The notes beneath the pieces are model-generated. The model searched no databases. It was given only the letters and a program-made list of their open reading frames with translations, and was not told where the DNA came from. 64,000 nt of DNA, taken from contig JAFYXV010000010.1 in assembly GCA_017557885.1 (NCBI GenBank), positions 1 through 64,000 on the forward strand, read 5' to 3'. Shown here piece by piece: positions 27,974 through 34,833 of this stretch (within the stretch, counting starts at the first letter, position 1; every line of letters begins with the position of its first letter). The stretch is from a bacterium. GTDB taxonomy: Bacteria > Auribacterota > UBA3054. A program made the position numbers and the translations under genes.

Positions 27974-28758
27974 AGTTCACGAAAATGCACGGGCTGGGCA
28001 ACGACTTCGTGGTCGTTGACGCCACCGGGACTCTGAAAGACTGGCACCCCAGCGCCAGGGAGGCCTCCTTTCTGCAGGATCGGCACTTCGGCATCGGAGG
28101 GGACCAGCTTCTTCTCTTATATCCCTCTGTGAAGGCCGATCTGCGCATGGCTATTTTCAACGCCGACGGCAGCGAAGTGGAAATGTGCGGCAACGGCATC
28201 CGCTGCTGCGCCCTCTTTGCCAAAAGGCGCGGACTGGTCGCAAAGGACGAGATGACCATCGAGACGCCGGCCGGCATCATGCGTCCCGTCATAGTGGGTT
28301 CCGAAGTGAGAGTCGATATGGGAGCGCCGATAATAAGCGGCGTGGCGATCGCTCCGCCCGAAGGGCTGGAGCTGCCTCCCATGACCTGCGTCTCCATGGG
28401 CAACCCGCACGCGGTCTTCTTCGTTCCCGACGCGGAAATTTTTCCTGTGGCGGAATGGGGACCAAAAGTGGAAAGGCACCATTTGTTCCCCAATAGGACG
28501 AACGTGGAATTCGCGACCAAAATCGACGAAGAGACCGTCCGCATGCGCGTCTGGGAAAGAGGCGCCGGCATCACCATGGCCTGCGGCACCGGCTCCTGCG
28601 CGACATACGTGGCGGCGAAGCAGAACGGGCTTGTAGGTTCAGAGGGCAAAGTTATCCTGGACGGCGGAACGCTCACCATCAATTGGGAAGGCGAAGGGAA
28701 GTCGGTCTTCATGACCGGCCCGGCGACGGAAGTATTTGAGGGAGAGATCAGCTTATGA
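27964..28758 (+). CDS. dapF: Diaminopimelate epimerase
   Basis: 264 residues. It converts LL- to meso-diaminopimelate for lysine and peptidoglycan. The two catalytic cysteines lie in EMCGNGIRCCALFAKR (about 75-90) and MACGTGSCATYVAA (about 205-218). The N-terminal TKMHGLGNDFVVVD is diagnostic. Its 3' end overlaps the ABC ATPase start by ATGA. Confidence 0.95.
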   Translation: MQIKFTKMHGLGNDFVVVDATGTLKDWHPSAREASFLQDRHFGIGGDQLLLLYPSVKADLRMAIFNADGSEVEMCGNGIRCCALFAKRRGLVAKDEMTIETPAGIMRPVIVGSEVRVDMGAPIISGVAIAPPEGLELPPMTCVSMGNPHAVFFVPDAEIFPVAEWGPKVERHHLFPNRTNVEFATKIDEETVRMRVWERGAGITMACGTGSCATYVAAKQNGLVGSEGKVILDGGTLTINWEGEGKSVFMTGPATEVFEGEISL

Positions 28759-29459
28759 GTCTTCTGGTCTGCGAAAACATCGTGAAGGAATTCGGGAACG
28801 CCCCCAATCGCATTGCCGTGCTGAAGGGCGTAAACCTTTCCCTGGAGAAAGGCGAGGCCGCGACGATCCTGGGCTCCTCCGGCGCCGGAAAGAGCACGCT
28901 CCTCAATATCATCGGCGCCTTAGACCCGCCCAGCGAAGGAAAAGTTTTCCTGGACGGCGAGGATCTCTATTCCCTGAACGACAGAAAGATCTCCGCCCTC
29001 AGGAACCGGAAGCTCGGCTTCGTCTTCCAGCTCTACCATCTCATGGCGGAGCTGACGGCCCTGGAGAACGTCCTGCTGCCGGCCCGCATCGCGGGGCACG
29101 AGGACGCCAAGGCCAGGGAGAGGGCCAGGGACCTTCTGGCCGCGGTGGGTCTGAAGGACAGGGAAAAACATTTCCCCGCCCAGCTTTCCGGCGGCGAACA
29201 GCAGAGGGCGGCCATCGCCAGGTCTCTCATAAACGAGCCGGAACTTCTGCTGGCGGACGAGCCCACGGGAAACCTGGACCGCAAGAACAGCGAAATGATC
29301 ACGGAGCTTTTGGTGAATCTGCAGAAGAAGATGGGCTTCGCCATGCTTTTCGTGACCCACAACCGGGAGCTTTCCTCCCTGGGACGGACCTGGATACTGC
29401 AGGACGGGATACTTCTGGAAGCGGACAGCAAAGAGAATTTAACGACGCCGAAAATATGA
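28755..29459 (+). CDS. lolD: LolD-type ABC transporter ATP-binding protein
   Basis: 234 residues. Walker A GSSGAGKSTLL (about 39-49), Q-loop FVFQLYHLM, signature LSGGEQQRAAIARSL, Walker B LLLADEPTGNLD, H-loop FVTHN. The sequence is of the LolD/MacB/FtsE group, most like LolD, the ATPase that powers lipoprotein release from the inner membrane. No LolC/E permease is adjacent, so the partner must be elsewhere. It is coupled to dapF and rdgB by four-base overlaps. Confidence 0.82.
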   Translation: MSLLVCENIVKEFGNAPNRIAVLKGVNLSLEKGEAATILGSSGAGKSTLLNIIGALDPPSEGKVFLDGEDLYSLNDRKISALRNRKLGFVFQLYHLMAELTALENVLLPARIAGHEDAKARERARDLLAAVGLKDREKHFPAQLSGGEQQRAAIARSLINEPELLLADEPTGNLDRKNSEMITELLVNLQKKMGFAMLFVTHNRELSSLGRTWILQDGILLEADSKENLTTPKI

Positions 29460-30061
29460 AACTTGTATTGGCAACCATGAATCCCGGCAAAGTCAGGGAA
29501 CTGACCGACATGATGCGCAAGGCCAACGTTGACATCACGGTCTGCGGCCTTATGGACTATCCCGGCTACAAATCGCCCATAGAAGACGGCGAAACTTTCG
29601 GGGAGAACGCCCGCAAGAAGGCCGTGACCGCCGCTGAAGCCCTGGGCGAAGTCGTTCTGGCGGACGATTCCGGACTCTGCGTGGACGCTTTGGACGGAGC
29701 GCCAGGAGTGTATTCCGCCCGTTTCGCCGGGGAGGGACACAACGACGAGGCCAATATAGAAAAACTTTTGGAACGCCTGAAGGACGTGCCCGACGACAAG
29801 CGTCAGGCCCGCTTCGTCTGCTCGCTGTGCCTGGCTTTTCCCAACGGCGATTTTTTCGTGGCCGAAGGGGACTGCTGCGGCTCCATCGCCAGGGCGAAGC
29901 GCGGGAAAAACGGGTTCGGCTACGATCCCGTCTTCCTTCTGCCGGACGGCCGGATGATGGCGGAACTTGACCAGACGGAAAAGAATTTGATCTCTCACCG
30001 CGGCGCCGCCTACCGGCTTGTCATGCCGCAGCTGCGCGCCCTGGCGAAAGAATCGGAATAA
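29456..30061 (+). CDS. rdgB: XTP/dITP diphosphatase (RdgB/HAM1 family)
   Basis: 201 residues. It removes non-canonical purine NTPs (dITP, XTP) from the nucleotide pool. Family motifs are LATMNPGKVRELTDMM, LADDSGLCVDALDGAPGVYS (about 66-85), KNGFGYDPVFLLPDG and the C-terminal SHRGAAYRLV. The start is ATG 29456, overlapping the lolD stop. A degraded copy of its 3' end recurs between the two downstream sigma genes. Confidence 0.94.
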   Translation: MKLVLATMNPGKVRELTDMMRKANVDITVCGLMDYPGYKSPIEDGETFGENARKKAVTAAEALGEVVLADDSGLCVDALDGAPGVYSARFAGEGHNDEANIEKLLERLKDVPDDKRQARFVCSLCLAFPNGDFFVAEGDCCGSIARAKRGKNGFGYDPVFLLPDGRMMAELDQTEKNLISHRGAAYRLVMPQLRALAKESE

Positions 30062-30077
30062 ACCCTGCGATATCCTT

Positions 30078-31880
<1,803 letters not shown>

Positions 31881-31885
31881 ACTGC

Positions 31886-31984
31886 ATGACGGAACGCTCT
31901 GACAAGAATATACAATTAATGTTTCATAGCGGCGCAGCCCTCGTGCTGGCCATGCCGCAAATGCGCGCCCCAAAAGGCGCCTAA
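31886..31984 (+). pseudogene. Remnant of the rdgB 3' end (duplication scar)
   Basis: An open 32-codon stretch reading [20 protein letters not shown] then [12 protein letters not shown] and a stop. It matches the C-terminus of RdgB: MAEL-DQTEKN against MTER-SDKN, SHRGAAYRLVMPQLRAL against [17 protein letters not shown]. At DNA level ATGCCGCA-TGCGCGCCC is shared, and both copies precede a sigma gene that starts ATGCCG. It is too short to be functional RdgB and is best read as the leftover of a tandem duplication of rdgB 3' end plus sigma gene. Confidence 0.8.
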
Positions 31985-32004
31985 TCAAACTTTGTGAGGA
32001 CCTT

Positions 32005-34833
32005 ATGCCGACAAAGAAACCCCAAAAAACAAACGCGAGATCTTCGCAAAGCAAACCTAAAGGTAACACTGTGACCAAAACGCAAAACAGTAAAGCCAAA
32101 TCCGTCGCGCCGGCCAAACCGGCCGCCAAAAAGCCGGTCGCAAGCAAACCGGTCAAAAAACCCGTGACTGCCACCAAGCAGCCCGCAAAAAAAGTCGTAA
32201 AGACGGCGCCGAAGCCGGCCACGAAGCCCGCTTCCAAAAAAGTCGTAAAAACGGCGCCGAAGCCGAGCGTGAAGCCGGCCCCCAAAAAGGTCGTGAAACC
32301 TGCCTTGAAGCCGAGCGTGAAGCCGGCTCCCAAAAAGGTCGTGAAACAAGCCCCGAAGCCCGCTCCGAAAAAGACCGCGAAGCCCGCTCCGAAAAAAACC
32401 GTGAAGCCAGTCGCCAAGCTCGCTCCGAAAAAAACCGTGAAGCCGGCGGCGAAAGCTCCCATAAAGAAAGCCGCTCCCGCGAAGAAGCCGGCTGTGAAAG
32501 CGCCCGCCAAAAAGGCAGCCCCTGTCAAGAAGCCCGCTCCCGCTAAGAAGCCGGCTCCGAAGGCGCCCGCCAAAAAGGCAGCCCCCGTCAAGAAGCCCGC
32601 TCCCGCTAAGAAGCCGGCTGTGAAGGCGCCCGCCAAAAAGGCAGCCCCTGTCAAGAAGCCCGCTCCCGCGAAGAAGCCGGCTCCGAAGGCGCCCGCCAAA
32701 AAGGCAGCCCCCGCCAAGAAGCCCGCTCCCGCGAAGAAGCCCGCCCCGAAGGCGCCCGCCAAAAAGGCAGCCCCTGTCAAGAAAGCCGCTCCCGCGAAGA
32801 AGCCGGCTGTGAAGGCGCCCGCCAAAAAGGCAGCCCCCGTCAAGAAAGCCGCTCCCGCCAAGAAGCCGGCTGTGAAAGCGCCTGCCAAGAAGGTTGTGAA
32901 GCCAGTCGCCAAGCCCGCTCCGAAGAAGCCTGAGAAAGCGGCCGCCAAGCCTGCTGCGAAAAAGCCCGCCGCCGCGAAAGCCGCGTCCCAGCCCGCCCCC
33001 AAGAAGGTCGTGGCCGTGAAAGCGGCCGCCAAGCCCGAGGAAAAAGCGAAGGCCAAGCGCAAACCGACGGAAGAAGAAAAGCAGGCCGCCGCCATTCGTT
33101 TGGCGGAACTCAAGCAGACCGGCGGAAAGCGGAAAGTCAACTATGACGACGACGACGAAGGCAGCGCCGTCATCAGCCCTGTTTTGGTCGCCAACCTCGT
33201 CGCTCAGCTGAGCGACATGTGCATAGAGGAAGAAAACGGCGCGAAATACGTAACGCTGACCCAGTTCACCACCGTGGCGCCCGAAGACGTCCGGATGGAA
33301 GACCTGGAAGAGCTGCAGAACCGCGTGGTTGAAGGCCTGAAACGCCTGGGCATCGAATTCAGGGACGAAGAGGAGATAGAGGACAGCTACGACACCTCCA
33401 TGGGCGAAGGCGCCAGCGACGACCCGGTCAAGACCTACCTGAGGCAGATGGGCAAAACGAAGCTTTTGACCAAGCAGCAGGAACAGGAAATGGCCAAGAC
33501 CATCCGCGACGCCGAGCGTCAGATCAAGGAGATCGTGGGCGGCTTCGGCAATCTGCCCACCAGAGTGCTGGAACTTTGCAACAGCCTGCTGGGCGCCTCC
33601 GAACGTTTCGACCACATCGTTTCCGAAGACGAGCGCAAAAACTCCGGCAGCCGCGACAACTACGTGAAGAACATGCGGCCCATCCGCCGGGAGATCCGCT
33701 CGTTGGATCTTTTCATGCGCCAGACTTATATGCGCATGATCTGCGCCAGAAGAGACGGCAGGAAAGAAGACGCGGAGAAGCTGGGCGAGCAGCTGCGCCG
33801 GGACCACGGCAAGATGACCGAGCTCATCGGGAAATTGCACTTCAAGCACAGCATGGTGGAAAACTTCGCGGAAGACGTCCTGAAGATCTCCAATTCCATC
33901 AATGAGACGAAAAAGACCATCGCCGATCTCAAGGAAGCCAACCGTCAGGAAGAGGACAAGGAGACCAAGGAGCGCAACAGAAGGCGCATCGCCCAGGAAG
34001 AGCAGAAGATCCAGATCCAGGAATTCGAATGCCGGATGCCCGTCAAGGATATTCTCTCCAAGGCCGACCAGCTTGCCAAGTGGACCGAAAAGGCCAGGCA
34101 GGAAAAGAACAAAATGGTCTTGGCCAACCTGAGGCTGGTGGTCTCCATCGCCAAGAAATACATGAACCACGGACTGGACTTCCTGGATCTCATCCAGGAG
34201 GGCAACACGGGGCTCATGAAAGCGGTGGACAAATTCGACCACGAGCGCAGCTTCAAATTCTCCACTTACGCCACCTGGTGGATCAGGCAGTCCATCACCC
34301 GCGCCATCGCTGACCACGCCCGCACCATCCGCATTCCTGTGCACATGATCGAGACCATCAACAAGATGAGGAGATCAACCAAGAAGCTGGTCCAGCAGAA
34401 CGGCACCGAGCCTTCTCCCGACGAGATCTCCAACGACATCGGCGTTCCCGTCCAGAAGGTCCAGAGCATTCTGAAGATGTCCCAGCAGCCCATTTCCCTG
34501 CAGACTCCCGTGGGCGAAGGCAACGATTCCACCTTCGGCGACTTCATCGAGGACAAGAGCGCGGAGAATCCCATCCACGCCGCCAACAGCAAGCTCCTCA
34601 ACGAGAAGATCACCGAGGCCCTGAGCCAGCTTAGCGACAGGGAAAGGAAGGTCATCATCCTGCGCTTCGGTCTTCTCGAGAAGTACGGTCCTCCCAAGAC
34701 CCTGGAGGAAGTCGGCAAGGTTTTCGCGGTCACCCGCGAACGTGTCCGCCAGATCGAATCCAAGGCTTTGAAGAAACTGAAAGCCCCTCTGCGCAGCAGC
34801 AAGCTTTTCGCCTTCTACGAAGAGATGGAGTAA
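32005..34833 (+). CDS. rpoD: Primary sigma factor RpoD with histone-H1-like Lys/Pro/Ala tail (tandem copy 2)
   Basis: 942 residues, far longer than the usual 370-620. Residues about 1-380 are a low-complexity basic tail of KP/KA/PAKK units, including six copies of a 21-residue repeat at 165-290. A short acid patch YDDDDEG (380-386) precedes the sigma core. Region 1.2 is [19 protein letters not shown], region 2.4 is [19 protein letters not shown] (T757, R761, Q762, T765 as in E. coli) and region 4.2 is [18 protein letters not shown]. The recognition residues are canonical, so this is the likely housekeeping sigma. GAGGA lies before the ATG; cysD follows five bases after the stop. The tail's role is unknown; DNA binding is a reasonable inference. 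Confidence 0.93.
32497..32874 (+). repeat. 63-bp tandem repeat, six copies, within rpoD
   Basis: Six consecutive near-identical 63-bp units each encode [20 protein letters not shown] plus Pro or Val, starting at residues 165, 186, 207, 228, 249 and 270. A partial unit ([15 protein letters not shown]) precedes and KAPAKKVV follows. Differences are mostly silent or Val/Pro/Ala swaps. Looser 14-16-residue units ([14 protein letters not shown]) occupy residues about 68-150. Confidence 0.93.

Follow-up and report, generated by a model that had tools for sequence, protein, structure and literature searches.

A long lysine-, proline- and alanine-rich tail on a primary sigma factor in a genus of uncultured ruminant-gut bacteria

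Most accounts of basic tails on housekeeping sigma factors come from actinobacteria, and the function of such tails is unsettled. In Streptomyces, lysine repeats have been noted in HrdB (PMC7398561), and mycobacterial SigA carries a long, disordered N-terminal extension of 207–225 residues (PMC10011835). Removal of 42, 92 or 132 N-terminal residues from M. tuberculosis SigA left promoter affinity (measured by SPR), transcription and complementation unchanged; the acidic segment 132–179 mattered for activity (PMC10011835). Repeats rich in lysine, proline and alanine (K/P/A) are also found in the KPAA domains of AlgP and PhaF, in chlamydial Hc2 and in histone H1 tails, all of which belong to nucleoid or granule proteins. 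AlgP-type KPAA peptides bind DNA in vitro (PMC9239181), the lysine-rich tails of Ku and HupB are needed for DNA interaction (PMC7398561), and Hc2 varies in size through in-frame repeat turnover (PMC2848022).

Here we describe K/P/A-rich repeats that are instead fused to a primary sigma factor, in a genus of bacteria known from the ruminant gut and not yet cultured. The window analyzed (64,000 nucleotides of contig JAFYXV010000010.1) holds two adjoining rpoD genes, the second of which, copy 2, carries the tail. As in HrdB and SigA, this is a long N-terminal extension on a housekeeping sigma factor. Whereas residues 132–179 of SigA are primarily acidic, however, the tail described here is longer, basic almost throughout and built with K/P/A tandem repeats, and it is followed by a recognizable region 1.1. 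The features of copy 2 are as follows.

31996 to 31999, forward strand: Shine-Dalgarno sequence GAGG, 5 nt before the ATG of copy 2, identical in six genus genomes
32005 to 34833, forward strand: rpoD copy 2, a primary sigma factor of 942 aa with a lysine/proline/alanine/valine tail (ATG start; Pfam regions 1.2, 2, 3 and 4; TIGR02393)
32005 to 33075, forward strand: lysine/proline/alanine/valine tail, residues 1–357, net charge +108 (from composition)
32188 to 32360, forward strand: 48-bp (16-aa) tandem repeats within the tail (TRF)
32464 to 32893, forward strand: 63-bp (21-aa) tandem repeats, 6.8 copies, 91% match (TRF)
33076 to 33138, forward strand: short conserved linker, residues 358–378 (comparison within the genus)
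33139 to 33414, forward strand: diverged acidic sigma region 1.1, residues 379–470, net charge −19 (alignment, hhalign, sister-family Pfam matches and charge)
33421 to 33510, forward strand: sigma region 1.2, residues 473–502 (Pfam)
34114 to 34782, forward strand: sigma regions 2, 3 and 4, residues 704–926 (Pfam)

Pfam searches placed sigma-70 regions 1.2, 2, 3 and 4 on copy 2 in order, each above its cut-off, and the protein scored 361.8 bits against the NCBIfam model TIGR02393 (RpoD_Cterm; cut-off 354). Its score of 332.8 bits against the profile of MzaA, the MZA-associated sigma factor, is below the curated cut-off of 800 and is ordinary sigma homology. The tail is made up chiefly of lysine (31.1%), alanine (26.6%), proline (20.4%) and valine (9.2%), contains five acidic residues and is very probably disordered. 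A Pfam search of the tail at E values up to 1 matched no family, and none of H1, Hc1 or Hc2; its resemblance to H1 is compositional. The first-pass annotation had described an N-terminus of about 380 residues, nearly all lysine, proline, alanine and valine, free of aromatics up to the sigma core. This description fits the 357-residue tail together with the short linker (the annotated end, position 33150, is residue 382), and the first aromatic residue of the protein is Y380, but the retained region 1.1 intervenes before the sigma core. Long open frames also lie opposite the tail on the reverse strand (31854–33140 and 31981–34344), most likely as by-products of the GC-rich repeat codons.

Several observations speak for the tail being translated and constrained. 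Compared with one another, the seven 63-bp units differ mostly synonymously per site (repeat-to-repeat pN/pS = 0.305), and the leader and start of copy 2 are alike across six genus genomes. All eight genomes keep the tail in an open frame, although the rpoD contig ends within the repeats in four of them (at L115, L116, L117 and L121); for two of these four broken tails, another contig gives the N-terminal start. Because contigs end inside the repeats in this way, tail lengths in draft genomes are unreliable. The open frame in every genome, the low pN/pS and the conserved Shine-Dalgarno sequence and leader together argue for a coding feature rather than a chance one. The first-pass annotation had raised an internal start near residue 385, from which a protein without the tail would be made; no good candidate was found, as no start codon near this residue has a Shine-Dalgarno sequence. 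The TTG at residue 394 is without one, and the next in-frame ATG after the annotated start is residue 405, inside region 1.1; the AAGG sites before GTG codons 23 and 338 are weak.

Each of the eight genomes of the genus (G000–G007) has the tail. The four complete tails measure 361, 318, 299 and 280 residues, with 112, 102, 109 and 102 lysines and net charges of +108, +98, +105 and +98, respectively, which suggests, on the strength of four sequences from a single genus, that it is the charge and not the length that is maintained. These values are best explained by a tail that grows and shrinks by repeat turnover, as Hc2 does, while around 100–110 lysines are kept. The sequence feature itself is real and well supported.

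An acidic segment of 92 residues, found between the tail and region 1.2, is common to copy 2 and its tail-less paralogue; we identified it as a diverged region 1.1. Pfam region 1.1 gave no direct match on copy 2, and a direct profile of four sequences gave a probability of only 19%. Among three sister-family proteins searched against the same Pfam family (cut-off 22.5), two passed (32.0 and 24.4 bits) and the third scored 18.8 bits. Comparison of the genus with the sister-family region 1.1 by hhalign gave an E value of 7.6e-9, and comparison of genus and sisters combined with other relatives gave 7e-11. The AlphaFold model of region 1.1 was weak (mean pLDDT 68, pTM 0.45), and Foldseek returned no PDB match for it at E 0.001; the identity of the segment rests on the profile chain through the sister families, not on predicted structure. 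Since this chain makes the acidic segment region 1.1, the tail was added in front of a region 1.1 that was kept and did not replace it. The opposition drawn earlier between the basic tail and the acidic region 1.1 of E. coli sigma70 is thus not borne out, as copy 2 still has an acidic region 1.1 (net −19).

Upstream of copy 2, the window contains a second rpoD gene, with the following arrangement.

28736 to 30061, forward strand: open reading frame holding rdgB (Ham1), located upstream of rpoD in the genus and in sister families (Pfam Ham1p_like; synteny)
30078 to 31880, forward strand: rpoD copy 1, a 600-aa paralogue with no repeat array (sequence comparison, tree, dN/dS)
31929 to 31985, forward strand: relic of the 3' end of rdgB, lying between rpoD copies 1 and 2; the end of rdgB itself reads LVMPQLRALAKESE* (comparison of the relic with the rdgB end)

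This relic shows that the end of rdgB was duplicated in tandem together with rpoD. It also accounts for a conserved hairpin in the leader before copy 2, which was considered as a regulatory RNA and rejected: the hairpin is the rdgB 3' end, which is coding sequence where it precedes copy 1 and a duplicated remnant where it precedes copy 2, and a search of Rfam gave no match. Two RpoD-like genes are thus found in G000 (92.7% complete); copy 1 was found only in G000 and G005, copy 2 in all eight. The tree places copy 1 of these two genomes inside the genus on a long branch, so that its exact place is unsure. Between G000 and G005, dN/dS is around 0.38 (0.278/0.736) for copy 1 and 0.08 (0.030/0.369) for copy 2. 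Around 40 N-terminal residues of copy 1 resemble those with which the tail of copy 2 begins, and the repeat array is absent, so that the array is dispensable in one paralogue. In both copy 1 proteins, a threonine of copy 2 in region 2.4 is replaced by isoleucine and an arginine in region 4.2 by lysine. In our own numbering the changed positions are those of E. coli T440 and R584, which contact the −10 and −35 elements, and are thus presumed contact positions here. Copy 1 is possibly a new alternative sigma factor.

Lysine-rich extensions had been suggested as a possibility for related lineages. They do occur throughout the genus and in scattered other lineages, but the sister families of the order have none: no such tail was present in the sister-family rpoD genes read, which start around 20–40 residues before the core motif of region 1.1. 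As rdgB lies upstream of rpoD in these families too, it is the same gene that gained the tail in the genus. Elsewhere in the phylum (44 genomes), RpoD also has a lysine-rich tail in G032 (about 200 residues), G015 and G016. In a sample of Verrucomicrobiota, 158 of 240 genomes gave matches and 50 loci were read (the 30 best-scoring and 20 with long frames, partly overlapping sets). Many of these 50 have lysine-rich N-termini, which reach around 300 residues in G055, G119 and G155. Shorter tails occur in Verrucomicrobiota at, for example, L032, L034 and L193–L202; the long and the short ones are lysine/alanine/proline tails and, as in copy 2, they lie upstream of region 1.1. The N-terminal segment measured in G055, G119 and G155 carries a charge of +65 to +83, below that of the genus tail, and these proteins have other repeat units and belong to separate lineages; the G155 tail consists of tandem units of roughly 20 aa. 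Literature searches, confined to open-access papers, retrieved nothing on RpoD tails in Verrucomicrobia. With tails of around 300 residues in these three genomes, tandem units in G155 and lysine repeats in HrdB (PMC7398561), neither length nor repeats are unique, and the novelty that the first-pass annotation had seen in length and repeat order does not hold. Tails of this kind recur, and that of the genus is a strong example: it is unusually long, carries a high charge and is retained by all members of the genus.

The other K/P/A repeat locus in the genome encodes a free protein of 108 aa (G000:C2:197521-197845; reverse strand, 3522–3845 of L251). Its neighbour, by eye and from its start, resembles what we take to be the large chain of carbamoyl-phosphate synthase. 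Seven of the eight genomes yielded genes for free K/P/A proteins, some of them cut by contig ends, and the pattern matched 30 times in the remaining one, G007; the four proteins measured are 83–113 aa in size, and the repeat motif is near absent in seven sister-family genomes. The free protein is HC2-like in composition, but against Pfam HC2 it scored 27 bits, below the cut-off of 40. As a gauge of a possible common DNA origin, codon sharing between the sigma tail and the free protein was compared; it was in slight excess in three of four genomes and showed no excess in the fourth.

The likeliest role of the tail, which we hold to be somewhat better than an even prospect, would be to tether sigma or holoenzyme to DNA by non-specific electrostatic contacts. 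The tail would contact DNA without sequence preference, like H1 or the AlgP tail, and would thereby concentrate sigma and holoenzyme locally on the nucleoid; there may also be an interaction between its charge and the adjacent acidic region 1.1. Tethering is favoured because AlgP-type KPAA peptides bind DNA and the lysine-rich tails of Ku and HupB are needed for DNA interaction. We also count for it the absence of aromatics and the 20% proline of the tail, as in H1-type tails; the charge of +98 to +108 and the 102–112 lysines of the four complete tails, with eight of eight frames open and a pN/pS of 0.305; and the occurrence of a free K/P/A protein in the genus and of lysine-rich RpoD tails in separate lineages. 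Against it count the missing array in copy 1 and the SigA N-terminal deletions, which were without effect up to 132 residues. The earlier suggestion that this sigma factor may bind DNA without core, or be linked to the nucleoid, is plausible, and the tail may affect promoter search.

The tail could instead be a near-neutral low-complexity expansion, in which GC-rich AAG/CCG/GCC repeats grow by slippage at the rpoD 5' end, where disorder lets the protein tolerate them. Its tandem repeat structure, its variable length within the genus, the lack of an array in copy 1 and the finding that M. tuberculosis SigA can do without its first 132 residues (PMC10011835) are all consistent with such an origin. 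However, constraint between the repeats, a near-constant number of lysines while length changes by around 30%, retention of the tail in all eight genomes and the repeated emergence of lysine-rich tails on RpoD make it unlikely, at about one chance in five. Slightly less probable still is binding to RNA (nascent transcripts, rRNA or a 6S-like RNA), by which the tail would keep sigma or polymerase close to sites of transcription or within condensates; disordered polycations spaced by proline would bind nucleic acids of any kind and the composition shows no preference for DNA, but DNA is weakly favoured by the H1-type composition and by the free K/P/A protein. Improbable by comparison is a tail that binds polyphosphate and retunes sigma in starvation, as reported for the H. 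pylori principal sigma factor and AlgP: AlgP does associate with polyphosphate granules and needs its KPAA domain for granule spacing (PMC9239181), and polyphosphate binding to lysine repeats and to the Helicobacter pylori factor is the subject of work cited in PMC12345225, but PPK1 (PF02503) and PPK2 (PF03976) were not found in G000–G007 (three of these eight genomes reach a completeness of 90% or more by the tool's tally) by searches that were positive in 7 and 8 of 14 control genomes, which disfavours this role and suggests a genus without the usual polyphosphate kinases.

Returning to DNA tethering, a more elaborate form can be pictured in which the start of transcription is coupled to chromatin. 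The sigma factor would have gained its H1-like tail along with the free H1-like protein, sigma and nucleoid coat would share a charge-conserved K/P/A module, and the tail-less copy would stand outside as a separate, fast-diverging sigma factor. This we regard as doubtful. Since the tail and the free protein all come from one genus, their joint presence counts as a single evolutionary observation.

Our survey indicates that basic tails recur on RpoD in Verrucomicrobiota and their neighbours, upstream of an intact region 1.1. Within this pattern the genus offers a clean comparison, with a tailed sigma factor, sister families that lack the tail in the same gene order, and a tail-less paralogue adjoining the tailed gene, and the effect that such a polycation may have on promoter search is therefore directly testable.
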